A DNA stretch of 20,349 bases, taken from the IMG/VR virus record IMGVR_UViG_3300044645_003289, positions 1-20,349 of that record. One strand, written 5' to 3'. Made by a program: the position numbers and the translations under genes. Below, one piece after another: positions 5,324 to 14,122 of the stretch (position 1 is the stretch's first letter; each line of letters starts with the position of its first letter). The notes below the pieces were generated by a model that saw nothing but the letters and a program-made list of their open reading frames with translations, searched no databases and had not been told where the DNA came from. Origin of the DNA: a virus.

Positions 5324-6571
5324 GTGAAAATTTCGCCCACTGGCATCAAATTAATTAAATCTTTCGAGGGACTAAGCCTCACCAGCTACCTCTGTCCTGT
5401 CGGTGTACTTACCATTGGCTACGGTCACACCGGAAACGTGCTTGCTGGAACAAAAATCACCGAGAAAGAAGCCGACGCACTTCTCAAGCAAGATCTCATT
5501 AAATTCGAGCAAGCAGTATTAAATTACGTCACCATTGATTTAAATCAAAATCAATTTGATGCACTTGTCTCCTTCTGTTTTAACGTCGGAACCCAGGCTT
5601 TTAAGGGTTCAACGTTAGTTAAACGTCTTAATAATGGAGAAAACCCTAATATTGTCGCTGCCGAAGAGCTGCCAAGGTGGAATAAAGGTGACGGAAAAGT
5701 CCTTGAGGGCTTGAGCCGCCGCCGTTCCGCAGAGGTTGAATTATTTTGCAGCGAAGCCCCGAAAGTAAAGGTTGGATTAATTGATATAACTTCTAAATTT
5801 AATACCTGGCTCAAAAAACGACTCGTTCCTTCCGTCGAGTTAGGTCGTGACGAAAAAGCCAATATTTACAAAGGCAGAACAATTCGAAATTGCTTTGTTA
5901 TTGATCGTAAGGACAAGCATAGCTACGTAGAAATGGGCTTCGGGCTTGGTAAGTGGTGGATCTACGACGATCACTGGGACGGACTTGTCACTAAGACAAC
6001 GATCCATCCTTACGCGATTGACGGTGATCTCCGTTATCTCCGTAACTTCCCATACTTTCATCAAAAGGATAACGGCCCTGAAGGCTGGCGCCAGTGTCAG
6101 ACGAGCAGTATTGCAATGTGTCTGAAGTACTTAGATACGCCCGGTATTAACGACGATACTGACTACTTGAAGATCGTTAATAAGTACGGAGACACCATTT
6201 ATCGCAACCCTCATTTTAAAGCCTTGGCAGAGTTAGGTGTATCCGCTAAGTTTACTCAAACTGCAGACTCGGATGACGTTAAAAAACAAATTGACTCGGG
6301 CCTCCCTGTTGTTGCCGGCATTCTTCATCATGGAACTGTTTCTGACCCTTCTGGTGGCGGCCACTTTGTGGTTATTACTGGTTATGGCCGGGATTATTGG
6401 CTAGTCCAAGACCCCTACGGTGAACAGGACCTGGTCAACGGTGGTTGGGCTTCAACCGGTGCCGTCGCCGGTCGCAATGTTCGCTACAGCTTCAAGAACT
6501 TAAACCCTCGATTCTTTGTTGGTGGGGGCGGCTCTGGCTGGTGCTGGTACGACTTTAAACGCTTAAAGTGA
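5324..6571 (+). CDS. Endolysin: GH24 muramidase fused to C39-like peptidase
   Basis: The gene starts at GTG and encodes 415 residues, long for a GH24 endolysin. Residues 1-145 form a GH24 lysozyme domain with LIKSFEG (E15), C24 and TIGYGHT (T30). The spacings +9 and +6 match a Glu-Cys-Thr triad in place of T4's Glu-Asp-Thr. The conserved NQNQFDALVSFCFNVG and SRRRSAEVELF segments are also present. A linker or SH3-like stretch follows (about 150-230). Residues 240-415 look like a C39-type papain-fold peptidase, with QCQTSS (C258), GGGHFVVITGY (H347) and QDPYGE (D363). The enzyme is inferred to cut both glycan strands and peptide bonds of peptidoglycan at lysis. No signal peptide is seen, so it depends on a holin. 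Confidence 0.88.
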   Translation: MKISPTGIKLIKSFEGLSLTSYLCPVGVLTIGYGHTGNVLAGTKITEKEADALLKQDLIKFEQAVLNYVTIDLNQNQFDALVSFCFNVGTQAFKGSTLVKRLNNGENPNIVAAEELPRWNKGDGKVLEGLSRRRSAEVELFCSEAPKVKVGLIDITSKFNTWLKKRLVPSVELGRDEKANIYKGRTIRNCFVIDRKDKHSYVEMGFGLGKWWIYDDHWDGLVTKTTIHPYAIDGDLRYLRNFPYFHQKDNGPEGWRQCQTSSIAMCLKYLDTPGINDDTDYLKIVNKYGDTIYRNPHFKALAELGVSAKFTQTADSDDVKKQIDSGLPVVAGILHHGTVSDPSGGGHFVVITGYGRDYWLVQDPYGEQDLVNGGWASTGAVAGRNVRYSFKNLNPRFFVGGGGSGWCWYDFKRLK

Positions 6572-7476: not shown

Positions 7477-7551
7477 TCGGAGTGGAAGGATTCAAACCTT
7501 CGGCCTGTCGCTCCCAAAGCGACCGCTCTAATCAAGCTGAGCTACACCCCG
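7477..7551 (-). tRNA. trnP(UGG): tRNA-Pro (anticodon TGG)
   Basis: Read on the minus strand, the 75 nt fold into a full cloverleaf. The acceptor stem is CGGGGTG/CACTCCG with one G-U pair and discriminator A. The D stem is GCTC/GAGC, the anticodon stem GTCGC/GCGAC with loop TTTGGGA, and the T arm GAAGG-TTTGAAT-CCTTC. The anticodon TGG reads CCA proline codons. CCA is not encoded at the 3' end and must be added by the host. The 5' end touches the encoded CCA of the tRNA-Leu gene, so the two are probably cut from one transcript. Confidence 0.95.
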
Positions 7552-7637
7552 TGGTAGGAACGGTGGGACTTGAACCCACAAGGTCAAAGACCAACGCATT
7601 TTAAGTGCGCAGCGTATCCCGATTCCGCCACGTTCCC
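7552..7637 (-). tRNA. trnL(UAA): tRNA-Leu (anticodon TAA) with encoded CCA
   Basis: Read on the minus strand, the acceptor stem is GGGAACG/CGTTCCT with a G-U first pair, followed by A73 and an encoded CCA (7554-7552). The anticodon stem GCGCA/TGCGT carries loop CTTAAAA with anticodon TAA, reading UUA leucine codons. The long variable arm (GGTC-TTT-GACC) is typical of class II tRNA-Leu. The T arm is GTGGG-TTCAAGT-CCCAC. The gene lies upstream of tRNA-Pro in the same orientation with no spacer. Confidence 0.95.
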
Positions 7638-7708: not shown

Positions 7709-8119
7709 ATGTTCAACTGCGAAGATGATCTCCTGGTCAATCTCGTTGTTTTAACTCCGAAACTTGCGCGTCGCAAATTTAGGCAGCACATCTTTGAAGC
7801 CTGGGGATGGCGCTGTGCTTATTGCGATAAACAACTCAGTGAACATACTGCCACAATCGATCACATTATCCCTAAACACAAGGGCGGTCAAAATGTTCGC
7901 TGGAACATGGCTGCAGCCTGTTCAAACTGCAATCGATCCAAAGCCAGTACGTTAGTCAACGTTTGGTTTACTCCAGATTTACCAATCTATTGCGAGAAAA
8001 GACTTGATAAACTAAATAAATGGATGGAGCAAAAACCTTGTTCCATCAAGCTCCCATCGACGGAACAGGCGGTTCCTTACATCTCCAATGATTTCTACAT
8101 CGGCTGGGTCGCGACCTAA
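7709..8119 (+). CDS. HNH endonuclease
   Basis: The 136-residue protein has a compact HNH nuclease domain at about residues 25-80: RCAYCD (C36/C39), TIDHIIPKHKGG (D51, H52, H57) and ACSNCNRSK (C71/C74, N75). The CxxC pairs bind structural zinc, and His52 is the expected catalytic base of the HNH (McrA-like) fold. The tail (about 85-136) is specific to this protein and may contact DNA. It lies on the other side of the tRNA pair from a second, different HNH gene. Its end overlaps the next small ORF by 32 bp. It is inferred to be a homing-type nuclease. A packaging HNH is less likely without terminase nearby. Confidence 0.88.
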   Translation: MFNCEDDLLVNLVVLTPKLARRKFRQHIFEAWGWRCAYCDKQLSEHTATIDHIIPKHKGGQNVRWNMAAACSNCNRSKASTLVNVWFTPDLPIYCEKRLDKLNKWMEQKPCSIKLPSTEQAVPYISNDFYIGWVAT

Positions 8120-8267
8120 CGGCAAAGAGTTTCTGGATGGCTACGTAGAAAAAGCCATTCAGGAGCTTCAGCGGGCGCGAATCCCTTCAGGTTTCCAGCG
8201 CTTGGCGCAAGGAGAAGAGGCAACTGATATTAAAACTAAAGCGATGAATCGAGAGATTATCGTTTGA
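8088..8267 (+). CDS. 59-aa small ORF, unknown function
   Basis: This short frame starts at an ATG inside the end of the HNH gene and stops 2 nt before the next ATG. It fills a stretch that would otherwise be empty in a tightly packed region. The protein begins MISTSAGSRPNGKEFLDGY, continues with VEKAIQELQRARIPSGFQRL and ends in MNREIIV. It looks like a single amphipathic helix with a charged tail. No strong Shine-Dalgarno precedes the ATG. The family is not recognised. The fit with its neighbours and the protein-like composition support it as real. Confidence 0.5.
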   Translation: MISTSAGSRPNGKEFLDGYVEKAIQELQRARIPSGFQRLAQGEEATDIKTKAMNREIIV

Positions 8268-8269
8268 TC

Positions 8270-8569
8270 ATGTCTGACCGAGCGAAGGCCAAGCGGCTGG
8301 CTGTTGAACGGCTGAAATGTAACAAGCCCGTACGAACACCAGATCATCCGACAAAATCACACGTTGTTCGAGCGTGTGGTGATGATGTACCTGGAGGAGA
8401 AAAGATAATTAGATTCGGTGAACAAGGAGCTGAAACGGCTGGTAAACCTAAAGAAGGTGAATCGGAAAGAATGAAGAAAAAACGTGCTAGTTTTAAAGCT
8501 AGGCACGCAAAAAATATCGCAAAAGGTAAAGGCTCAGCCGCATATTGGGCCGACAAAGTTAAGTGGTAA
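8270..8569 (+). CDS. Small basic conserved viral protein, unknown function
   Basis: The ATG at 8270 is preferred to a TTG at 8264. It lies 2 nt after the preceding stop and gives 99 residues. The protein is strongly basic and has a C-terminal block of EKIIRFGEQG, then KKKRASFKARHAKNIAKGKG and AYWADKVKW. This combination (IRFGxQG, SFxARHxKNIxKGK, AYWAxKVKW) is familiar from a conserved family in tailed phages and some large DNA viruses. It has no settled function that I can name. The high Lys/Arg content makes nucleic-acid binding plausible. The next gene begins 5 bp downstream. Confidence 0.75.
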   Translation: MSDRAKAKRLAVERLKCNKPVRTPDHPTKSHVVRACGDDVPGGEKIIRFGEQGAETAGKPKEGESERMKKKRASFKARHAKNIAKGKGSAAYWADKVKW

Positions 8570-8574
8570 AACCC

Positions 8575-9039
8575 ATGGCAAAACCCCAAACAAACAAGAC
8601 AAGCGCCTGCTACTCCCACCTGGTTCAGTGCCTGCGTGATTCGATGCACCTGTATCAGCAAACCCTGCTTGTCCATTGGGGTTTGATGGGTAGCAAGTTT
8701 TACCAAATCCATACGCTGACTCAAATGATTTACGAAGAGATGCAGGAAGCTCTCGACGTAATCGCGGAACATATCCGCTCTCTGGACATTGCGACGCCCA
8801 AGACCGTCGAAGACCTGACCTATTCCAACCTCCCCTCCGTCCCTCTGGAAGACTGCTTCAAGCAAGAGGTGATCATCAGCCAGTTGGCAGCCAATCAAAA
8901 CGCACTGGCTGACCGCTTCCAGGATTTAGCAGCCATGGCTGAGACCCTTGGCGATCAACTGACGCTTGACTTAGCTGTTGAGCGTGGGCGGGTCCACAAG
9001 AAGTTCCAGTGGCTTCTCAAAGCCAACCTGGACGCCTAG
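8575..9039 (+). CDS. dps: Dps-like ferritin-family protein
   Basis: The ATG at 8575 is chosen over an upstream in-frame GTG inside the previous gene, giving 154 residues, a normal Dps length. It has the Dps core LVHWGLMGSKFYQIHTLTQM followed by EEMQEALDVIAEHIRSLD. The inter-subunit ferroxidase ligands of Dps are all present at correct spacing: H34, H46 (+12), D61 (+27) and E65 (+31). The C-terminus (LAVERGRVHKKFQWLLKA) fits the last helix. Dps proteins form 12-mers that oxidise and store iron, and many bind DNA. In a phage it may protect DNA from host photosynthetic oxidants or handle iron, which is inference. An N-terminal Lys-rich DNA-binding tail is short at best. Confidence 0.85.
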   Translation: MAKPQTNKTSACYSHLVQCLRDSMHLYQQTLLVHWGLMGSKFYQIHTLTQMIYEEMQEALDVIAEHIRSLDIATPKTVEDLTYSNLPSVPLEDCFKQEVIISQLAANQNALADRFQDLAAMAETLGDQLTLDLAVERGRVHKKFQWLLKANLDA

Positions 9040-9062
9040 AATAAGCAAAATTGGTTTAGCCC

Positions 9063-9407
9063 ATGGGTTTCTTTGAGGGTTACCAGCAGACGCTGGTACA
9101 GAACTTTCCTGAGCTTACAGCCCCCGGTTTGACCGATACAATCGACGTATTGGTGGCCAATTACCTGTCGACCCGCAACTACACGCTGAGTGCGACCGTA
9201 ACCAACATCAACACCTCTGTTGTGGTACGCCTTGATGGCAGCATTGATGGTATTAATTATGGTCCGCTAATCTCAAACACAATTATTGAGAACGGAACTT
9301 ATCTCTATTACGTTAACGGATTTCCGGTTGGTCATTTACGCGCTAATTTTTATCACGAAACCGGCGGCACTGATGCCGTCGTTAAATTTAGTATTGCAGC
9401 CAACTAA
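9063..9407 (+). CDS. Small beta-rich protein, probably structural
   Basis: This 114-residue protein is dominated by alternating hydrophobic and Thr/Asn residues typical of beta-sandwiches: VTNINTSVVVRLDGSIDGIN, then ENGTYLYYVNGFPVGHLRAN and DAVVKFSIAAN. There are no catalytic motifs, membrane segments or signal peptide. Such small beta proteins in phages are often capsid decorations or tail accessories, but I recognise no named family. It ends in a 4-bp convergent overlap with the 2OG oxygenase gene on the opposite strand. Confidence 0.6.
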   Translation: MGFFEGYQQTLVQNFPELTAPGLTDTIDVLVANYLSTRNYTLSATVTNINTSVVVRLDGSIDGINYGPLISNTIIENGTYLYYVNGFPVGHLRANFYHETGGTDAVVKFSIAAN

Positions 9408-10198
9408 ATCAAGCTCCAGCTGCGGAACCACTTAGTAATTACATATTTGTTTCCACTGAGGGGCGGGCACGCCTCATGCATAGTTTTTAGATTGGGTAGT
9501 CCATTTTTATAGAGATTATTCCAGACGACCAGCATTCCCTGTTTGGGCTTTACATGAAGATTTAGGTGCTTGAAATACGTTTCACCACCCTCTTCAACAT
9601 CATTGAGATAGACCATAGTGGTCCAAGTTCGCTGCCCCATCCATTCGCAGTAAATTTTGTATTCCTTTGTGGTGGGCATGAAGAAGTCCCAGTGCTCTTT
9701 ATAGTATTGACCAGGCTCATATTTTTGTGCTTGCATAATCTCACCGAGAAAACTATAGAGCCCTAAAGTGTCTACAATTCTCCTGTCTAGCTCCAGGTAA
9801 AGAGGGTCGTCAAAGTAGTGCAGGTCTGAGGTTTGGCTAGTTCTGTAGTCTGAAACCAAGCATGAATCTGCGTCATCGGAGACAGTTGAAGGTCTCAAGC
9901 GAGTATCAATGAGCCTTATCAAGGCCTCACATTCATCTTTGGTTAAAATGTTGTCGTAAGTATAAATTTGAGTAAACGGATAAAAGATCCGATTCCCCGT
10001 TTTGGTGATCTTGGCGCCGTGAAAATCTTTGTAATTAATATTGGACGGCCGGCTTCTAAATGAGCACAGGTGGATGACCTGATCAATTTCGCCATCCCCC
10101 AGTCCATGGCGCTCCCTCATGGTCCTAATCAGTTGCGTCCTACTCACGCCACCAACCGCTGATTTCATAAATTCCGCGACGAGTTGGTTGCTGATCAT
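9404..10198 (-). CDS. 2-oxoglutarate/Fe(II)-dependent oxygenase (prolyl 4-hydroxylase type)
   Basis: The 264-residue protein has the double-stranded beta-helix oxygenase fold at about residues 75-262. The iron ligands are H169 and D171 (KEHWDFF) and H241 (TMHEACPP), and K251 ten residues later is in the 2-oxoglutarate-binding position. Flanking motifs YRTSQTSDL, QAQKYEPGQYYKEHWDFF, YLNDVEEGGETYF and KYVITKWFRS match the P4H alpha-subunit family. Residues 1-50 form a separate helical N-terminus of unknown role. Enzymes of this type are frequent in cyanophages. The substrate, which could be a protein residue or a nucleobase, cannot be told from sequence. It is the first minus-strand protein gene of the window. 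Confidence 0.92.
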   Translation of the reverse strand: MISNQLVAEFMKSAVGGVSRTQLIRTMRERHGLGDGEIDQVIHLCSFRSRPSNINYKDFHGAKITKTGNRIFYPFTQIYTYDNILTKDECEALIRLIDTRLRPSTVSDDADSCLVSDYRTSQTSDLHYFDDPLYLELDRRIVDTLGLYSFLGEIMQAQKYEPGQYYKEHWDFFMPTTKEYKIYCEWMGQRTWTTMVYLNDVEEGGETYFKHLNLHVKPKQGMLVVWNNLYKNGLPNLKTMHEACPPLSGNKYVITKWFRSWSLI

Positions 10199-10336
10199 TG
10201 GTCGGTTTGTCGTCTGTACAATGTATTAGTTAAGCCATTGTTTTTCAAGTGGAAGTTGTTATCTTAACTTTTGGCTTGGTTTTTGGAAGCATCTACAGCT
10301 TAACGACGGTTATTTTGGGACAAGAGATCGAGAGCC

Positions 10337-10489
10337 ATGAATCCAACTCCCCACGAACACTTAAAAAATTACGTCACCGAGCATTTGGCAGAGCTGGTTC
10401 CGGCCGTTTTTGAGGAGGGTGTTGACCTGCCGTCATTTACGACGGATCAACGCACCAAACCCCTGGATGAACCCCCGTACCGCGTGTGA
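10337..10489 (+). CDS. 50-aa small ORF, unknown function
   Basis: It lies between the divergent oxygenase gene and the NblA-like gene. An ATG preceded by GAGAG opens a 50-residue protein, MNPTPHEHLKNYVTEHLAEL followed by VPAVFEEGVDLPSF and a Pro-rich end. It is acidic and probably helical in its first half. The stop codon lies directly upstream of the proposed promoter of the next gene. The family is not recognised. The call rests on a sensible start, position and composition. Confidence 0.45.
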   Translation: MNPTPHEHLKNYVTEHLAELVPAVFEEGVDLPSFTTDQRTKPLDEPPYRV

Positions 10490-10517
10490 TTGACGATTAA
10501 TTCAGCGCTGTTAGGAT
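10490..10517 (+). promoter_or_regulatory. Sigma-70-like promoter upstream of nblA-like gene
   Basis: TTGACG (10490-10495, five of six to the -35 consensus) and TAGGAT (10512-10517, four of six to the -10 consensus) are separated by 16 bp. The NblA-like ATG is 22 bp downstream. Transcription would start around 10524, giving a very short leader. AAGG at 10524-10527 is the only Shine-Dalgarno-like sequence and is distant. The gene may therefore be expressed on its own by the host RNA polymerase. Confidence 0.45.
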
Positions 10518-10539
10518 ATCTGTAAGGTTTAGATCACCC

Positions 10540-10755
10540 ATGGATGCCGTAGATCTTCCGATGGACGTGGAGTTTTCAATCCACGCTGCCGCCCTAGCCA
10601 TTCAAAACCTGGACCGGGACGAATTGGAAGAGGCTTTCATCGAGATGCTCCACCAGAAAGCCCTGGACCGTCAAATGTTCCTGGGCATCTTGAAAGACCA
10701 CGGCATCGACGCCGATATCAATTTCAACTACTCCACGCTCGGACAGATTTCCTAA
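10540..10755 (+). CDS. nblA: NblA-like phycobilisome degradation protein
   Basis: The 71 residues match the NblA layout: a short N-terminus and one long helical core. The core reads VEFSIHAAALAIQNLDRDEL, then EEAFIEMLHQKALDRQMFLG and ILKDHGID. From memory, it aligns without gaps to the cyanobacterial pattern EFxIRxxxxQVQNMSxDQAxxFLxxLYxQMxxREATYxxLL. NblA recruits Clp protease to phycobilisome rods and triggers their breakdown under starvation. Phage copies are known, for example in Microcystis phage Ma-LMM01. Here it would free amino acids or reduce light harvesting during infection. The sequence is diverged, so another small helical family is possible. It appears to have its own promoter. 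Confidence 0.65.
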   Translation: MDAVDLPMDVEFSIHAAALAIQNLDRDELEEAFIEMLHQKALDRQMFLGILKDHGIDADINFNYSTLGQIS

Positions 10756-10760
10756 CCACC

Positions 10761-11147
10761 ATGGCCACCCGCACGATCAAAGGTACCCTCGACACGTTCC
10801 AGGTTGACAGCGGTTCCGACGTCACCTATCTGGGCAACACCTCTGCCGGTTCCACTGGTGGTCTGAACATCCGTGGATTCCGGGTGAACCCTGGCACCAC
10901 TGGTGACATCATCGTCAAACTGGACACGACCAGCGGTGTTAACACCATGGAGATCTTCCAAGAGGACGCGTACACCGCTGGTAATGCTCCGACTGGCTAC
11001 ACCAAGTACAGCAATATTGCGAAGAACGGTTCTGGTAAGGGCGCTGTGGCCGTGACCGTGACCAACGCTGCCAAAGACTACGTGGTGCTGCTAACTTTGG
11101 ATGGCTATTCTGAAGTTTCCTACACTGGCAGCGTCGTCGTCCCTTAA
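10761..11147 (+). CDS. Small beta-sandwich protein, probably virion structural
   Basis: This 128-residue protein starts 5 bp after the NblA-like stop. It is rich in Gly, Thr, Ser and Val, with alternating strands: IKGTLDTFQVDSGSDVTYLG, then RGFRVNPGTTGDIIVKLDTT and AVAVTVTNAAKDYVVLLTLD. The arrangement resembles PPC-like or immunoglobulin-like beta-sandwiches found on phage particles. No catalytic motif or signal peptide is visible. Its last 47 bp overlap the start of the next gene in another frame. A capsid decoration or fibre accessory role is plausible but not shown. Confidence 0.6.
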   Translation: MATRTIKGTLDTFQVDSGSDVTYLGNTSAGSTGGLNIRGFRVNPGTTGDIIVKLDTTSGVNTMEIFQEDAYTAGNAPTGYTKYSNIAKNGSGKGAVAVTVTNAAKDYVVLLTLDGYSEVSYTGSVVVP

Positions 11148-11871
11148 GAATACTGAAGATTGGAGTGAGTACCCGCTGCTCACTCCGAAAGGAGTTGAAC
11201 TAATTAAACGCCACACGCAGCCCCGTACCAATTTAGGTATGGGGCGTTTTGGTTCATACAAAGAATACGGAGAGGACATCTGGCGCATTGGATACGGTAG
11301 CAAGAAAATAAACAAGCACTGGGTTGGATACCACGAAGTCGCGACTCAAAAGCAGATTGAAGAGCAGCTAATCGAGGATCTAAAAGAATTTACCAAACAG
11401 ATCGAACCGTATATTTTTGTGCCTCTAAACAAGAACCGAAAGGCGGCCATCCTGTCATTTGCCCACAACCTAGGGGTGACGGGCTTCAAGGAATCACGTC
11501 TGCTGAGGCTGATCAACTCTCACGCCAGCAAAAAAGACATCATCCGTGAGTGGAGCCCATACATCAATGGAATGTGGCGTTCTGGTGGTGAATCGATTAT
11601 CAACCGAAGGCGAGCAGAGCTGGATACGTTTTTAGCTCCAGACAAGGAGATCCCTACCTTTACAGAACACAATTGCAAACTCAAAGTTTGCCTGTTGAAC
11701 CTACCCGAGACTTACACGGGAGTCCATAATCAGATCAAGGCGATTGAGTATCTGGAAGGAAAGATACTGAGCTGGGATCCGTCTGGACATGCTCTGAAGC
11801 ACTTTTTCCGTCTTTGGAATGAGAAACCCACCGGTCTAGGATCTCCGCCGCGTCCGGGGATAGATACTTGA
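11101..11871 (+). CDS. GH24-like lysozyme homologue lacking usual catalytic residues
   Basis: The ATG at 11101 lies inside the preceding gene. It is the only start before the domain, giving 256 residues. Residues 26-178 follow the GH24 order: LLTPKGVELIKRHTQPR, DIWRIGYGSKK, NKNRKAAILSFAHNLGVTGF and RRRAELDTF. Where active enzymes have FEG, this protein has HTQ (T39 in place of the catalytic Glu), and the TIGYG Thr is Arg (R62). It may be an inactive wall-binding homologue, or may use other acids such as those in the YKEYGED stretch. The C-terminal 75 residues (with SWDPSGHALKHFFRLWNEKP) match no known domain. The last 137 bp are antisense to another ORF. Confidence 0.7.
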   Translation: MAILKFPTLAASSSLKNTEDWSEYPLLTPKGVELIKRHTQPRTNLGMGRFGSYKEYGEDIWRIGYGSKKINKHWVGYHEVATQKQIEEQLIEDLKEFTKQIEPYIFVPLNKNRKAAILSFAHNLGVTGFKESRLLRLINSHASKKDIIREWSPYINGMWRSGGESIINRRRAELDTFLAPDKEIPTFTEHNCKLKVCLLNLPETYTGVHNQIKAIEYLEGKILSWDPSGHALKHFFRLWNEKPTGLGSPPRPGIDT

Positions 11872-11938
11872 TCTGATCTAGCGCGTCGATCAACTGGAGC
11901 TCCAGCGAGTAGTTATCTATAAATTCGTCGTATTGCAT
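11735..11938 (-). CDS. Small acidic protein, unknown function
   Basis: A 67-residue frame starts at 11938, overlapping the end of the upstream Nmad1-like gene by 22 bp. The N-terminal part, MQYDEFIDNYSLELQLIDAL followed by DQIKYLSPDAAEILDRWV, looks like a genuine helical protein. The C-terminal third (from about VSHSKDG) lies opposite the end of the GH24-like gene and is low in complexity, Ser/Asp-rich. The shared 137 bp means at least one of the two C-termini is weakly constrained. The family is not recognised. Confidence 0.5.
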   Translation of the reverse strand: MQYDEFIDNYSLELQLIDALDQIKYLSPDAAEILDRWVSHSKDGKSASEHVQTDPSSVSFLPDTQSP

Positions 11939-12228
11939 TCGACTTCTGTTGTTGATTCTCGTTTCAGGGCGATCTTAAGGAGCACTAAGTAGCCCATAAG
12001 ATCCATTATCACGTCTTCGTCATTAGCGAGAAGACCAGCCCCGGACTTTATTCTGCTTAGTTTATCATCAATCCGAACAAGGATCTGCTCGACAGCATTT
12101 GCCTTACTAAAGATTCGTGATGGATTTAAAGCCGAATCACCATATTTCTTATTCTTCTCAATTAGAAGCTCTTTCACCTCGTCACAGATTACCGCGATGT
12201 GGGCTTGCGTGTTGAAGAACTGAGTCAT
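11917..12228 (-). CDS. Nmad1 (DUF1599)-like protein
   Basis: The ATG at 12228 is preferred to an upstream in-frame start at 12273, giving 103 residues. It has the family pattern KNKKYGDSALNPSRIF (residues 25-40), VRIDDKLSRI (51-60) and NDEDVIMDLMGYLVLLKIA (69-87). This family was named nucleotide-modification-associated domain 1, because members lie near DNA or nucleotide modification genes in phages. The ED-D-L-Y spacing also recalls MazG-like pyrophosphohydrolases, so a nucleotide-related activity is plausible. A Dam-like methyltransferase is encoded nearby on the same strand, after one plus-strand gene. The biochemical role is not established. Confidence 0.7.
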   Translation of the reverse strand: MTQFFNTQAHIAVICDEVKELLIEKNKKYGDSALNPSRIFSKANAVEQILVRIDDKLSRIKSGAGLLANDEDVIMDLMGYLVLLKIALKRESTTEVECNTTNL

Positions 12229-12252
12229 GTTCAGGGCTGTCAGAATACCTAC

Positions 12253-12483
12253 ATGAAACCACAGTTTAGCCAAACTTACGATGTTGATGCCCGCTACACG
12301 GCTGGCAAAGGAGCACTCGATAATTCAGCCGGTAAAGCATTTTTAAATAGCTACATCAGCCGAATGCGCGAGGAGCAAAAGCCTGGTTATGGTTCTGATC
12401 TTGGGAATGAAGATAAATTTATTGTGAACGGACCAGGCAGTGCTAGCTATAGCTTCCGTAACGCCTTCCGAGCTACACAATAA
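12253..12483 (+). CDS. Small hydrophilic protein, unknown function
   Basis: The start at 12253 is preferred to 12199, because the earlier start would lie inside the divergent Nmad1-like gene. The 76-residue product begins MKPQFSQTYDVDARYTAGKG and includes KAFLNSYISRMREEQKPGYG and YSFRNAFRATQ. It is polar, probably partly disordered, and matches no family I know. Its stop overlaps the end of the minus-strand methyltransferase gene by 11 bp. It is isolated on the plus strand between minus-strand genes and has only 24 bp upstream for control signals. Confidence 0.55.
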   Translation: MKPQFSQTYDVDARYTAGKGALDNSAGKAFLNSYISRMREEQKPGYGSDLGNEDKFIVNGPGSASYSFRNAFRATQ

Positions 12484-13099
12484 TTCGACCAAGATTCGAA
12501 AAAATAGTTCTAAATTTTTCGACAGGGTCTAAATCAAATGTAAGGGGAGGTAGGTAAATAAAATACCCCCAGTGAATTGGTGTATCCAGACGGTAAAACC
12601 TGGCGCCATGGATCAAGTTGGCCCGATCCGTAGGAATACACATCGGTAGATCCCAAATTTCCGGGCAAACCCTCATCATTTCCGGATAAATCGTGAAGAA
12701 CAAAGCCTCGGGGATATTGCGCAGCTTCCACTCTTTATAAAGGCGTCGGAACCAGATCACGGACGGGGCTTTGGCGCCGTGACCAGCCTTCAGGCTCCAC
12801 CGCCAGGTCCCACGCTCCTTATTAAAAGAGCAGCGCCCGTAGGTTGGTGGGAACAGGTAGGTGACTCCCTTCCATGGCTCCTCGATATTGAGCCCATCAT
12901 CATCCAGCGTATAGATCCGCTTTGCTCTGATGAACTCGCTATTGGCCCGATGGGTCGAGCAGGGATCTAAATCGATATCACCCAGCAGGGCATCAATATA
13001 AGGTACGTATTCAACTGGAGTCACCCAATCGTCACGGATATGACGAATTCGGCTGAAGTACTTTTCGCGTACTAAAAACCGCTGCTGAGGTGTATTCAC
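12473..13099 (-). CDS. Phage Dam-like DNA N6-adenine methyltransferase homologue, atypical active site
   Basis: This 208-residue protein follows the phage N6-adenine methyltransferase (Dam, PF05869-type) layout: DDWVTPVEYV (23-32), DIDLDPCS (41-48), YTLDDDGLN (63-71) and W..G.. before the catalytic motif. Later segments IPEALFFTIYP, MCIPTDRANLIHGARFYRLD and WGYFIYLPP fit the fold. The catalytic NPPY/DPPY motif reads FPPTYG at 83-88, with the first Asn/Asp replaced by Phe. It could be inactive or altered, or the cyanophage branch may use this form. It is the last of four minus-strand genes and overlaps the preceding one by ATGA. Confidence 0.7.
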   Translation of the reverse strand: MNTPQQRFLVREKYFSRIRHIRDDWVTPVEYVPYIDALLGDIDLDPCSTHRANSEFIRAKRIYTLDDDGLNIEEPWKGVTYLFPPTYGRCSFNKERGTWRWSLKAGHGAKAPSVIWFRRLYKEWKLRNIPEALFFTIYPEMMRVCPEIWDLPMCIPTDRANLIHGARFYRLDTPIHWGYFIYLPPLTFDLDPVEKFRTIFSNLGRIIV

Positions 13100-13503
13100 A
13101 TCCGAAGAAACGAATTGTCCGGGTTTTCGTGTTTATAGTGAATTAGTGACATTTGGTCCTTGTCCTGGATGATAAACAAGGATTCCTTACTGGGATCAAC
13201 TGTTTCTGCTCGGACAATAGCCTTCTTCATCACGTCTGCAGGCCCCTCCATATCTCGACTATTGAAGTCATTAAGTGCGTTCATTAACGCTTCAAGGGGC
13301 AGATAAAACATCGAATCTTTGGGATCCTCAGCATCCGGAATATAAATTACTGCGCCAGGACCTTGTAAAGCGTAAAATTTGGAAAAAAATTCACACATGT
13401 CGATGCAAATTCGTTCCACCACAAGCTTCATCATGGTTTGCTCAGTTTCATTGGGTGCAGACAACATGAGCCTGCTAATCATCTTGTTACGGCGTTCAGT
13501 CAT
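13096..13503 (-). CDS. Unknown protein in methyltransferase operon
   Basis: This 135-residue protein starts ERRNKMISRLMLSAPNETEQ and continues KLVVERICIDMCEFFSKFYA. It has a beta-like middle (GAVIYIPDAEDPKDSMFYLP) and a helical and charged C-terminus ending in IIQDKDQMSLIHYKHENPDN. It is a mixed alpha/beta protein with no recognised catalytic motif. It lies third in a four-gene minus-strand operon, 22 bp after the upstream gene, and is coupled to the Dam-like methyltransferase by ATGA. A partner role for the methyltransferase is possible, but only from gene order. Confidence 0.65.
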   Translation of the reverse strand: MTERRNKMISRLMLSAPNETEQTMMKLVVERICIDMCEFFSKFYALQGPGAVIYIPDAEDPKDSMFYLPLEALMNALNDFNSRDMEGPADVMKKAIVRAETVDPSKESLFIIQDKDQMSLIHYKHENPDNSFLRM

Positions 13504-13525
13504 GGTTTTCTCCGGTTGTTTAAGT

Positions 13526-14122
13526 TTACTGCGCTTGTTGTGATTCGCTTGGTTGGGTTTCCTGACTCTTTTTTACGAGATGTCCCAATCCAGAGCGCTT
13601 GAGAGTCTCCAATAACTTGGGTAGTGGTTTGTATAAAACCACAGCTTTCTGCATATTACCAATTTTTTTAATCAGTTTCCCGTGCTCATCCCGTAGCTTC
13701 GTCAGTTCCCCCTGGCGGATAAGATATTCGGCTACGCAACGATACCTCCGTTTCTCAGCCAAGCCAATGTCCGGGTAGCGGTCGCAGATGGTGCTGGTTT
13801 TCATATCGCTGAACGTCAGTCGGATTTGATCAGCCAGCGACAGGCCCATCATCAGGTCCGTTGTACTGGTTTCATAACTGGAGACGAGCTCAAGGTACCG
13901 CCGAAGATCCAGTGTTTCAAAGCTACCGGAGGGTGGTAGAAAGATCTCAACCTGTTCCGCCAGGGAATTAACCAGCTTGTCTTTATAATTGTCGACAGTC
14001 ACCTCATTGATGTCCAGAGAAGCGAACCGGTAGCTCTGGTAGGTATTCCCAGCGTCTGCGTCTAGCTCAAATTCAGTTTTGTCAAGAATGTCGAGCCAGT
14101 CTTCGACCCTGTTCTCCGTCAT
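13526..14122 (-). CDS. Unknown 198-aa protein in methyltransferase operon
   Basis: The ATG overlaps the upstream stop by ATGA. The N-terminal 60 residues are acidic (ENRVEDWLDILDKTEFELDA). The central region includes FLPPSGSFETLDLRRYLELV and SLADQIRLTFSDMKTSTICD. From about residue 110 it becomes helical and basic (EKRRYRCVAEYLIRQGELTK, then LPKLLETLKRSGLGHLVKK), with a Gln/Ser tail. The basic helical half could bind nucleic acid. I considered a terminase small subunit but see no clear helix-turn-helix or large-subunit neighbour. The function is unknown. Confidence 0.65.
   Translation of the reverse strand: MTENRVEDWLDILDKTEFELDADAGNTYQSYRFASLDINEVTVDNYKDKLVNSLAEQVEIFLPPSGSFETLDLRRYLELVSSYETSTTDLMMGLSLADQIRLTFSDMKTSTICDRYPDIGLAEKRRYRCVAEYLIRQGELTKLRDEHGKLIKKIGNMQKAVVLYKPLPKLLETLKRSGLGHLVKKSQETQPSESQQAQ

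Follow-up and report, generated by a model that had tools for sequence, protein, structure and literature searches.

Does the small gene upstream of the lysozyme gene in this viral DNA encode a relative of NblA, and from which promoter and at what stage of infection would it be expressed? So far, a few nblA-carrying cyanophages are the known cases in which a phage controls the light harvesting of its host. The DNA analysed here, called the window below, is a whole IMG/VR virus record of 20,349 bases. The best explanation, to which we give a probability of about 0.68, is that the gene would encode a diverged NblA delivering phycobilisome rods to ClpC-ClpP, transcribed by the phage from its own sigma-70-like promoter.

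The ORF is present exactly as the sequence-only reading had noted it, encoding 71 amino acid residues on the plus strand at positions 10540 to 10755, from ATG to TAA. A scan of IMG/VR found 294 relatives, 80 of which were kept (about 77 to 100% identical to the window protein over all 71 residues); the window gene and these relatives are called family A. The 57 distinct gene sequences encoded only 38 proteins, with a median pS of 0.76 and a median pN of 0.11. The median dN/dS, calculated from the less saturated pairs, was 0.06, which indicates strong purifying selection on family A. Because of the number of IMG/VR relatives and this low ratio, we regard the ORF as a real gene and not a chance reading frame. 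The deposited phages held no relative of the window protein recognisable by tblastn, and Anabaena NblA as a tblastn query against deposited phages gave nothing useful. The GTDB scan gave one match, on contig QQUU01000116.1, binned in a Bacteroidetes MAG. The contig is probably phage and its binning an error, and Bacteroidetes was not taken as the host.

The lineage of the window is indicated by Synechococcus phage S-EIV1 (KJ410740), which was matched by 13 window ORFs at E<0.01, several of them colinear. The matches include the HNH gene, the ORF at 8264-8569 (66% identical) and a minus-strand block at 12473-14122, and the colinear window genes are arranged as they are at 69.7-77.3 kb of S-EIV1. 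Judged by these shared genes and their similar order, the window represents part of the genome of an S-EIV1-like cyanophage. Since the host of S-EIV1 is Synechococcus, the host of the window phage is taken to be a cyanobacterium on the strength of this kinship, without any appeal to NblA. The cyanobacterial host proposed earlier is therefore borne out, while the NblA match, then offered as the main evidence for it, no longer holds that place.

Several other window genes were recorded. Positions 5324-6571 encode a fusion of an endolysin with a C39-like peptidase domain (PF00959 and PF13529), which comes on top of a second lysozyme at 11101-11871. Both ARAGORN and Rfam support genes for tRNA-Pro(TGG) and tRNA-Leu(TAA), which lie side by side on the minus strand at 7477-7637. 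Upstream of the nblA-like gene are a Dps/ferritin-like protein (8563-9039, plus strand; in 12 of 103 relatives) and a 2OG-Fe(II) oxygenase (9404-10198, minus strand; in 76 of 103).

When the window protein alone was searched with phmmer against 177,635 PDB sequences, the top two matches were the NblA chains 3cs5 (E = 0.0028) and 1ojh (E = 0.01); the reversed protein, used as a control, found no NblA (best E 0.19). A family A profile built from 28 relatives gave 3cs5 at 4.2e-4 and 1ojh at 0.026. With a profile that joined family A to family B, its counterpart in S-EIV1 described below, and that contained phage sequences only, 1ojh was matched at 4.7e-6 and 3cs5 at 6.5e-5, the next match being at 0.47. 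Aligned by hhalign to cyanobacterial NblA (five NblA proteins encoded on plasmids and two fragments from the PDB), family A reached a probability of 92% over 55 columns. Residues 6-52 of the window protein pair with residues 10-56 of 3cs5 without gaps, so the gap-free fit to NblA claimed earlier stands.

In the Pfam scan the window protein did not reach PF04485, its gathering score being missed, and the PHROGs scan of this protein found nothing. PF04485 was touched by 4 of the 28 family A members, with a best E of 0.054. Because PF04485 is not reached though NblA chains top the PDB searches, the protein is a distant homologue of NblA that the curated Pfam test does not count as a member. The sequence-only reading had named an NblA profile match as one check on its assignment; read literally, that match fails for the window sequence against PF04485, but the evidence from the family contradicts the conclusion that would follow. 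The homology of family A to NblA is well supported by these comparisons, and we consider it very probable.

Individual residues can be followed through the alignment. Every family A member keeps L6 and F12 of the N-terminal motif, which is linked to ClpC binding; the motif reads L-x-x-E-Q-x-F in host NblA and L-P-x-D-V-E-F in family A, with E-Q replaced by D-V. K52 is also invariant and pairs with K53 of Anabaena NblA. Bienert et al. (2006) reportedly implicated L51 and K53 of Anabaena NblA in phycobilisome binding. The tail after residue 57 (GIDADINFN-STxGQIS) is conserved in family A and has no clear counterpart in host NblA.

The AlphaFold2 model, based on an alignment of families A and B with 33 phage sequences, has a predicted helix 1 at residues 8-21 (10561-10602, plus strand) and a predicted helix 2 at residues 26-53 (10615-10698, plus strand), the latter holding K52. 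Mean pLDDT was 75, and about 80 in the helices. NblA is a helix-loop-helix (PMC4103541; PMC7966870), and the helix-loop-helix of about 60 residues predicted for family A is compatible with that fold. Foldseek of two AlphaFold2 models against the PDB and BFVD gave no significant match and no NblA, whose crystal structures show a four-helix bundle of dimers; a 71-residue two-helix model may hold too little shape information for such a search.

When S-EIV1 was searched in six frames with the family A profile, the best match (3e-5) was AHV82245.1, a protein annotated as hypothetical that adjoins a lysozyme. For most of the members tested of family B, formed by this protein and its relatives, PF04485 is the best Pfam match, with values up to 3.2e-5 and 24.7 bits, 0.3 bits short of the cut-off of 25. 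The hhalign probability between families A and B was 88% over 62 columns. Family B lies at the same locus beside a lysozyme in the same phage lineage, and its helices align with those of family A without gaps. It differs in being only about 23-29% identical to family A, in having an acidic C-terminal tail and no K53 counterpart, and in its upstream motif, which is TTAGAATA and contains no AGCGCTG.

Family B was absent from 24 of the 25 family A records, and 16 records had family B without family A. The two families look like alternatives at one locus, and on these counts the idea that they are cohabiting paralogues was rejected. The one record with both is 88,133 nt long, and its first 832 nt match the stretch at about 85.2-86.1 kb at 70%. 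In this record the contig appears to continue beyond its own start into the sequence of another strain, and hence to hold both lysis-locus alleles. Records such as this contig can fake the co-occurrence of genes.

A PF04485 search of the long records revealed a further NblA-like family, family C, of about 81 amino acid residues with an SLEDEF motif. Its profile matched NblA 2q8v (4e-4) and 2qdo (0.012) in the PDB. Of the 25 family A records, 21 also carry family C. In S-EIV1 the match is weaker and falls at about 27768-27986, within the replication region; in relatives a conserved TARACT box is located about 27 nt upstream of the family C gene. Since family C so often stands alongside family A, many such phages carry two NblA-like proteins of different affinity. 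In Synechocystis, NblA1 and NblA2 form a heterodimer, according to Baier 2014 as cited in PMC7966870. By analogy, family C and family A or B might be made at different times or heterodimerise, with the antenna dismantled in two steps, a programme that we put forward as possible but doubtful.

The presence of family C in most long records of the same phages also bears on the function of family A, as family C could do the classical job. Family A might then be a repurposed NblA homologue that keeps its binding to phycobilisomes or ClpC yet inhibits or diverts Clp instead of promoting antenna degradation, either as an anti-adaptor or as an adaptor for another host protein. Such a change would agree with the two features that set family A apart from host NblA, the conserved tail at the C-terminus and the changed motif at the N-terminus. 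However, the lysine that pairs with NblA K53 is kept in every family A member, and the phage NblA proteins that have been tested are reported to promote degradation (PMC9602691). We consider repurposing unlikely.

Upstream of the gene, TTGACG-16-TAGGAT is located at 10490-10517 on the plus strand, with 22 nt from the -10 box to the ATG. The -35 hexamer TTGACG occupies 10490-10495, and the -10 box TAGGAT (10512-10517) is followed by a conserved A at 10518. In a single sequence this promoter-like site is not significant, because a sigma-70 scan of 8000-13500 found 7 such sites where shuffled sequences led us to expect 6.9, which is chance level. The comparison of relatives gave a different result. 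The 40-nt block containing the site is kept in 35 non-redundant upstream regions, all less than 85% identical to one another. Across these regions the mean information was 0.23 bits per column at -75 to -51, 0.89 at the -35 hexamer, 1.53 over TTCAGCGCTGKTARGATA (-39 to -22) and 1.63 over AAGGTT. TTG was found at the 16-nt spacing in 28 of the 35 regions, and this spacing survives a 1-nt indel, the whole unit moving by one base in one case. The distance from the block to the ATG is nearly fixed.

The spacer contains the conserved element TTCAGCGCTGT (10501-10511, plus strand), which holds the palindrome CAGCGCTG and an extended -10 TG. The conserved AAGGTT is located at 10524-10529 on the same strand, and its first A is invariant in all 35 regions. 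From its distance to the -10 box, this A at 10524 is the predicted transcription start, which would give a 16-nt leader; otherwise AAGGTT may be a weak Shine-Dalgarno sequence. The core motif (with at most one mismatch) occurred 16 times across 25 whole records, all in 15 of them, one of which had one extra occurrence; the positions checked were upstream of the family A gene, and a reversed control pattern gave 0 matches in the 25 whole records. The spacer element TTCAGCGCTG is thus almost confined to the family A gene. Because of this confinement and the conservation of the spacer, the family A promoter has a specificity that a generic host-type promoter would lack. Of the earlier claim that the gene has its own host-type promoter, the first half holds, in that the promoter is dedicated and conserved across 35 regions; it is at chance level when taken alone, and the generic host type has to be given up.

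The palindrome CAGCGCTG suggests contact with a regulator or with a dedicated polymerase. An operator might have such a palindrome in a conserved spacer, and together with the chance-level score of the single sequence this would agree with an alternative that concerns the promoter only and not the protein, namely that the block serves as an operator or in some other capacity, and that expression of the gene depends on read-through alone. Against this, the TTG spacing, the extended -10 and AAGGTT have been preserved as one unit across relatives whose more distal upstream sequence is entirely different, and the distance to the ATG hardly varies. We consider this alternative quite unlikely.

The nblA-like gene sits between tail and lysis genes, upstream of the lysozyme. 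It is preceded by a small ORF of 50 amino acid residues (10337-10489, plus strand; in 18 of 103 A-type loci), whose stop codon abuts the -35 hexamer. The downstream gene, encoding 128 amino acid residues with no assigned function, begins 5 nt past the nblA-like stop codon (10761-11147, plus strand) and was found at the same offset in 101 of the 103 loci. The third gene of the unit encodes an endolysin with a Phage_lysozyme domain (11101-11871, plus strand; PF00959, 1.7e-17), present in 96 of the 103.

Upstream of S-EIV1 genes, TAGAATA occurs 5 times against 0.37 expected and TAAAATA 7 times against 0.45 expected. These TARAATA boxes are often located 25-30 nt before structural genes, and the -10 boxes of families A and B (TARGATA and TTAGAATA) resemble them. 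This points, if faintly, to middle or late expression of family A. Expression early or under stress, as first proposed, is not supported, because the gene sits in the lysis region and its -10 box is like those before S-EIV1 structural genes. The nblA gene of Ma-LMM01 is expressed early (PMC4103541). A separate element, close to AAGCATGACRYTAAACTGCT, recurs in S-EIV1 upstream of three minus-strand genes, whose starts are at 30466, 33554 and 42957; one of the three encodes an ssDNA-binding protein, and the element possibly marks an early promoter class.

In such a lysis and structural neighbourhood, a small helical protein might serve a different purpose. That family A is an accessory protein of lysis or of the virion, for example a lysis timing factor that shares its transcript with the lysozyme, with a convergent similarity to NblA, would agree with the 128-residue gene and lysozyme that nearly always follow it, with the lysozyme adjoining its family B counterpart and with the late-like -10 box, but is very unlikely given that two NblA chains head the single-sequence, family A and joint A and B searches with none in the reversed control, and that most of the family B members tested independently have NblA as their best Pfam match.

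We therefore prefer a diverged NblA expressed from its own promoter. In this mechanism the helix-loop-helix protein would probably dimerise, its second helix and C-terminal end would bind phycobilisome rods, the rods would be handed to the host ClpC-ClpP protease or loosened, and antenna protein would be degraded during infection. Transcription would start from the sigma-70-like promoter with its conserved spacer element, and the nblA-like gene would probably be co-transcribed with the 128-residue gene and the lysozyme. We consider a role in phycobilisome degradation likely. As the protein is a distant relative of the NblA host adaptor, the virus may make its host dismantle the light-harvesting antenna. 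Phage nblA genes expressed in cyanobacteria have been found to cause loss of phycobilin (PMC9602691).

A 2017 survey in which the S-EIV1 group was covered recorded for it no photosynthesis genes other than hli and ptoX, and no nblA (PMC5332604). Family A is common in uncultured phages, absent from the deposited phage genomes searched and missed by the standard Pfam cut-off; it appears to extend phage control of light harvesting to the S-EIV1 lineage. With a conserved, dedicated promoter and two NblA-like proteins, these phages offer a directly testable case of the timing and manner of antenna takedown.

Like the NblA proteins of cyanobacteria (PF04485; 1ojh from Anabaena, and 3cs5), family A has a similar length, a predicted helix-loop-helix, a gap-free alignment and counterparts of L6, F12 and K52. 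It differs from them in being only about 20-28% identical, in missing the PF04485 cut-off, in the changed E-Q and in the extra conserved C-terminal tail. Proteins of T4-like cyanophages (S-SCSM1 QFG06501.1, S-TIM5 and S-SM2) have been described as phage NblA homologues (PMC9602691). Family A is unlike these, with an hhalign probability of 0.3% and no alignment, whereas family C is alike, with 94%. Phage nblA genes for which activity has been reported occur in phages of fresh water and in a marine lineage that is uncultured (PMC9602691), the latter described by Nadel et al. in 2019. The functional NblA of that marine cyanophage lineage resembles family A by description, both being nblA-like genes of uncultured cyanophages, and Nadel et al. 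may already have noted some of the genes described here.
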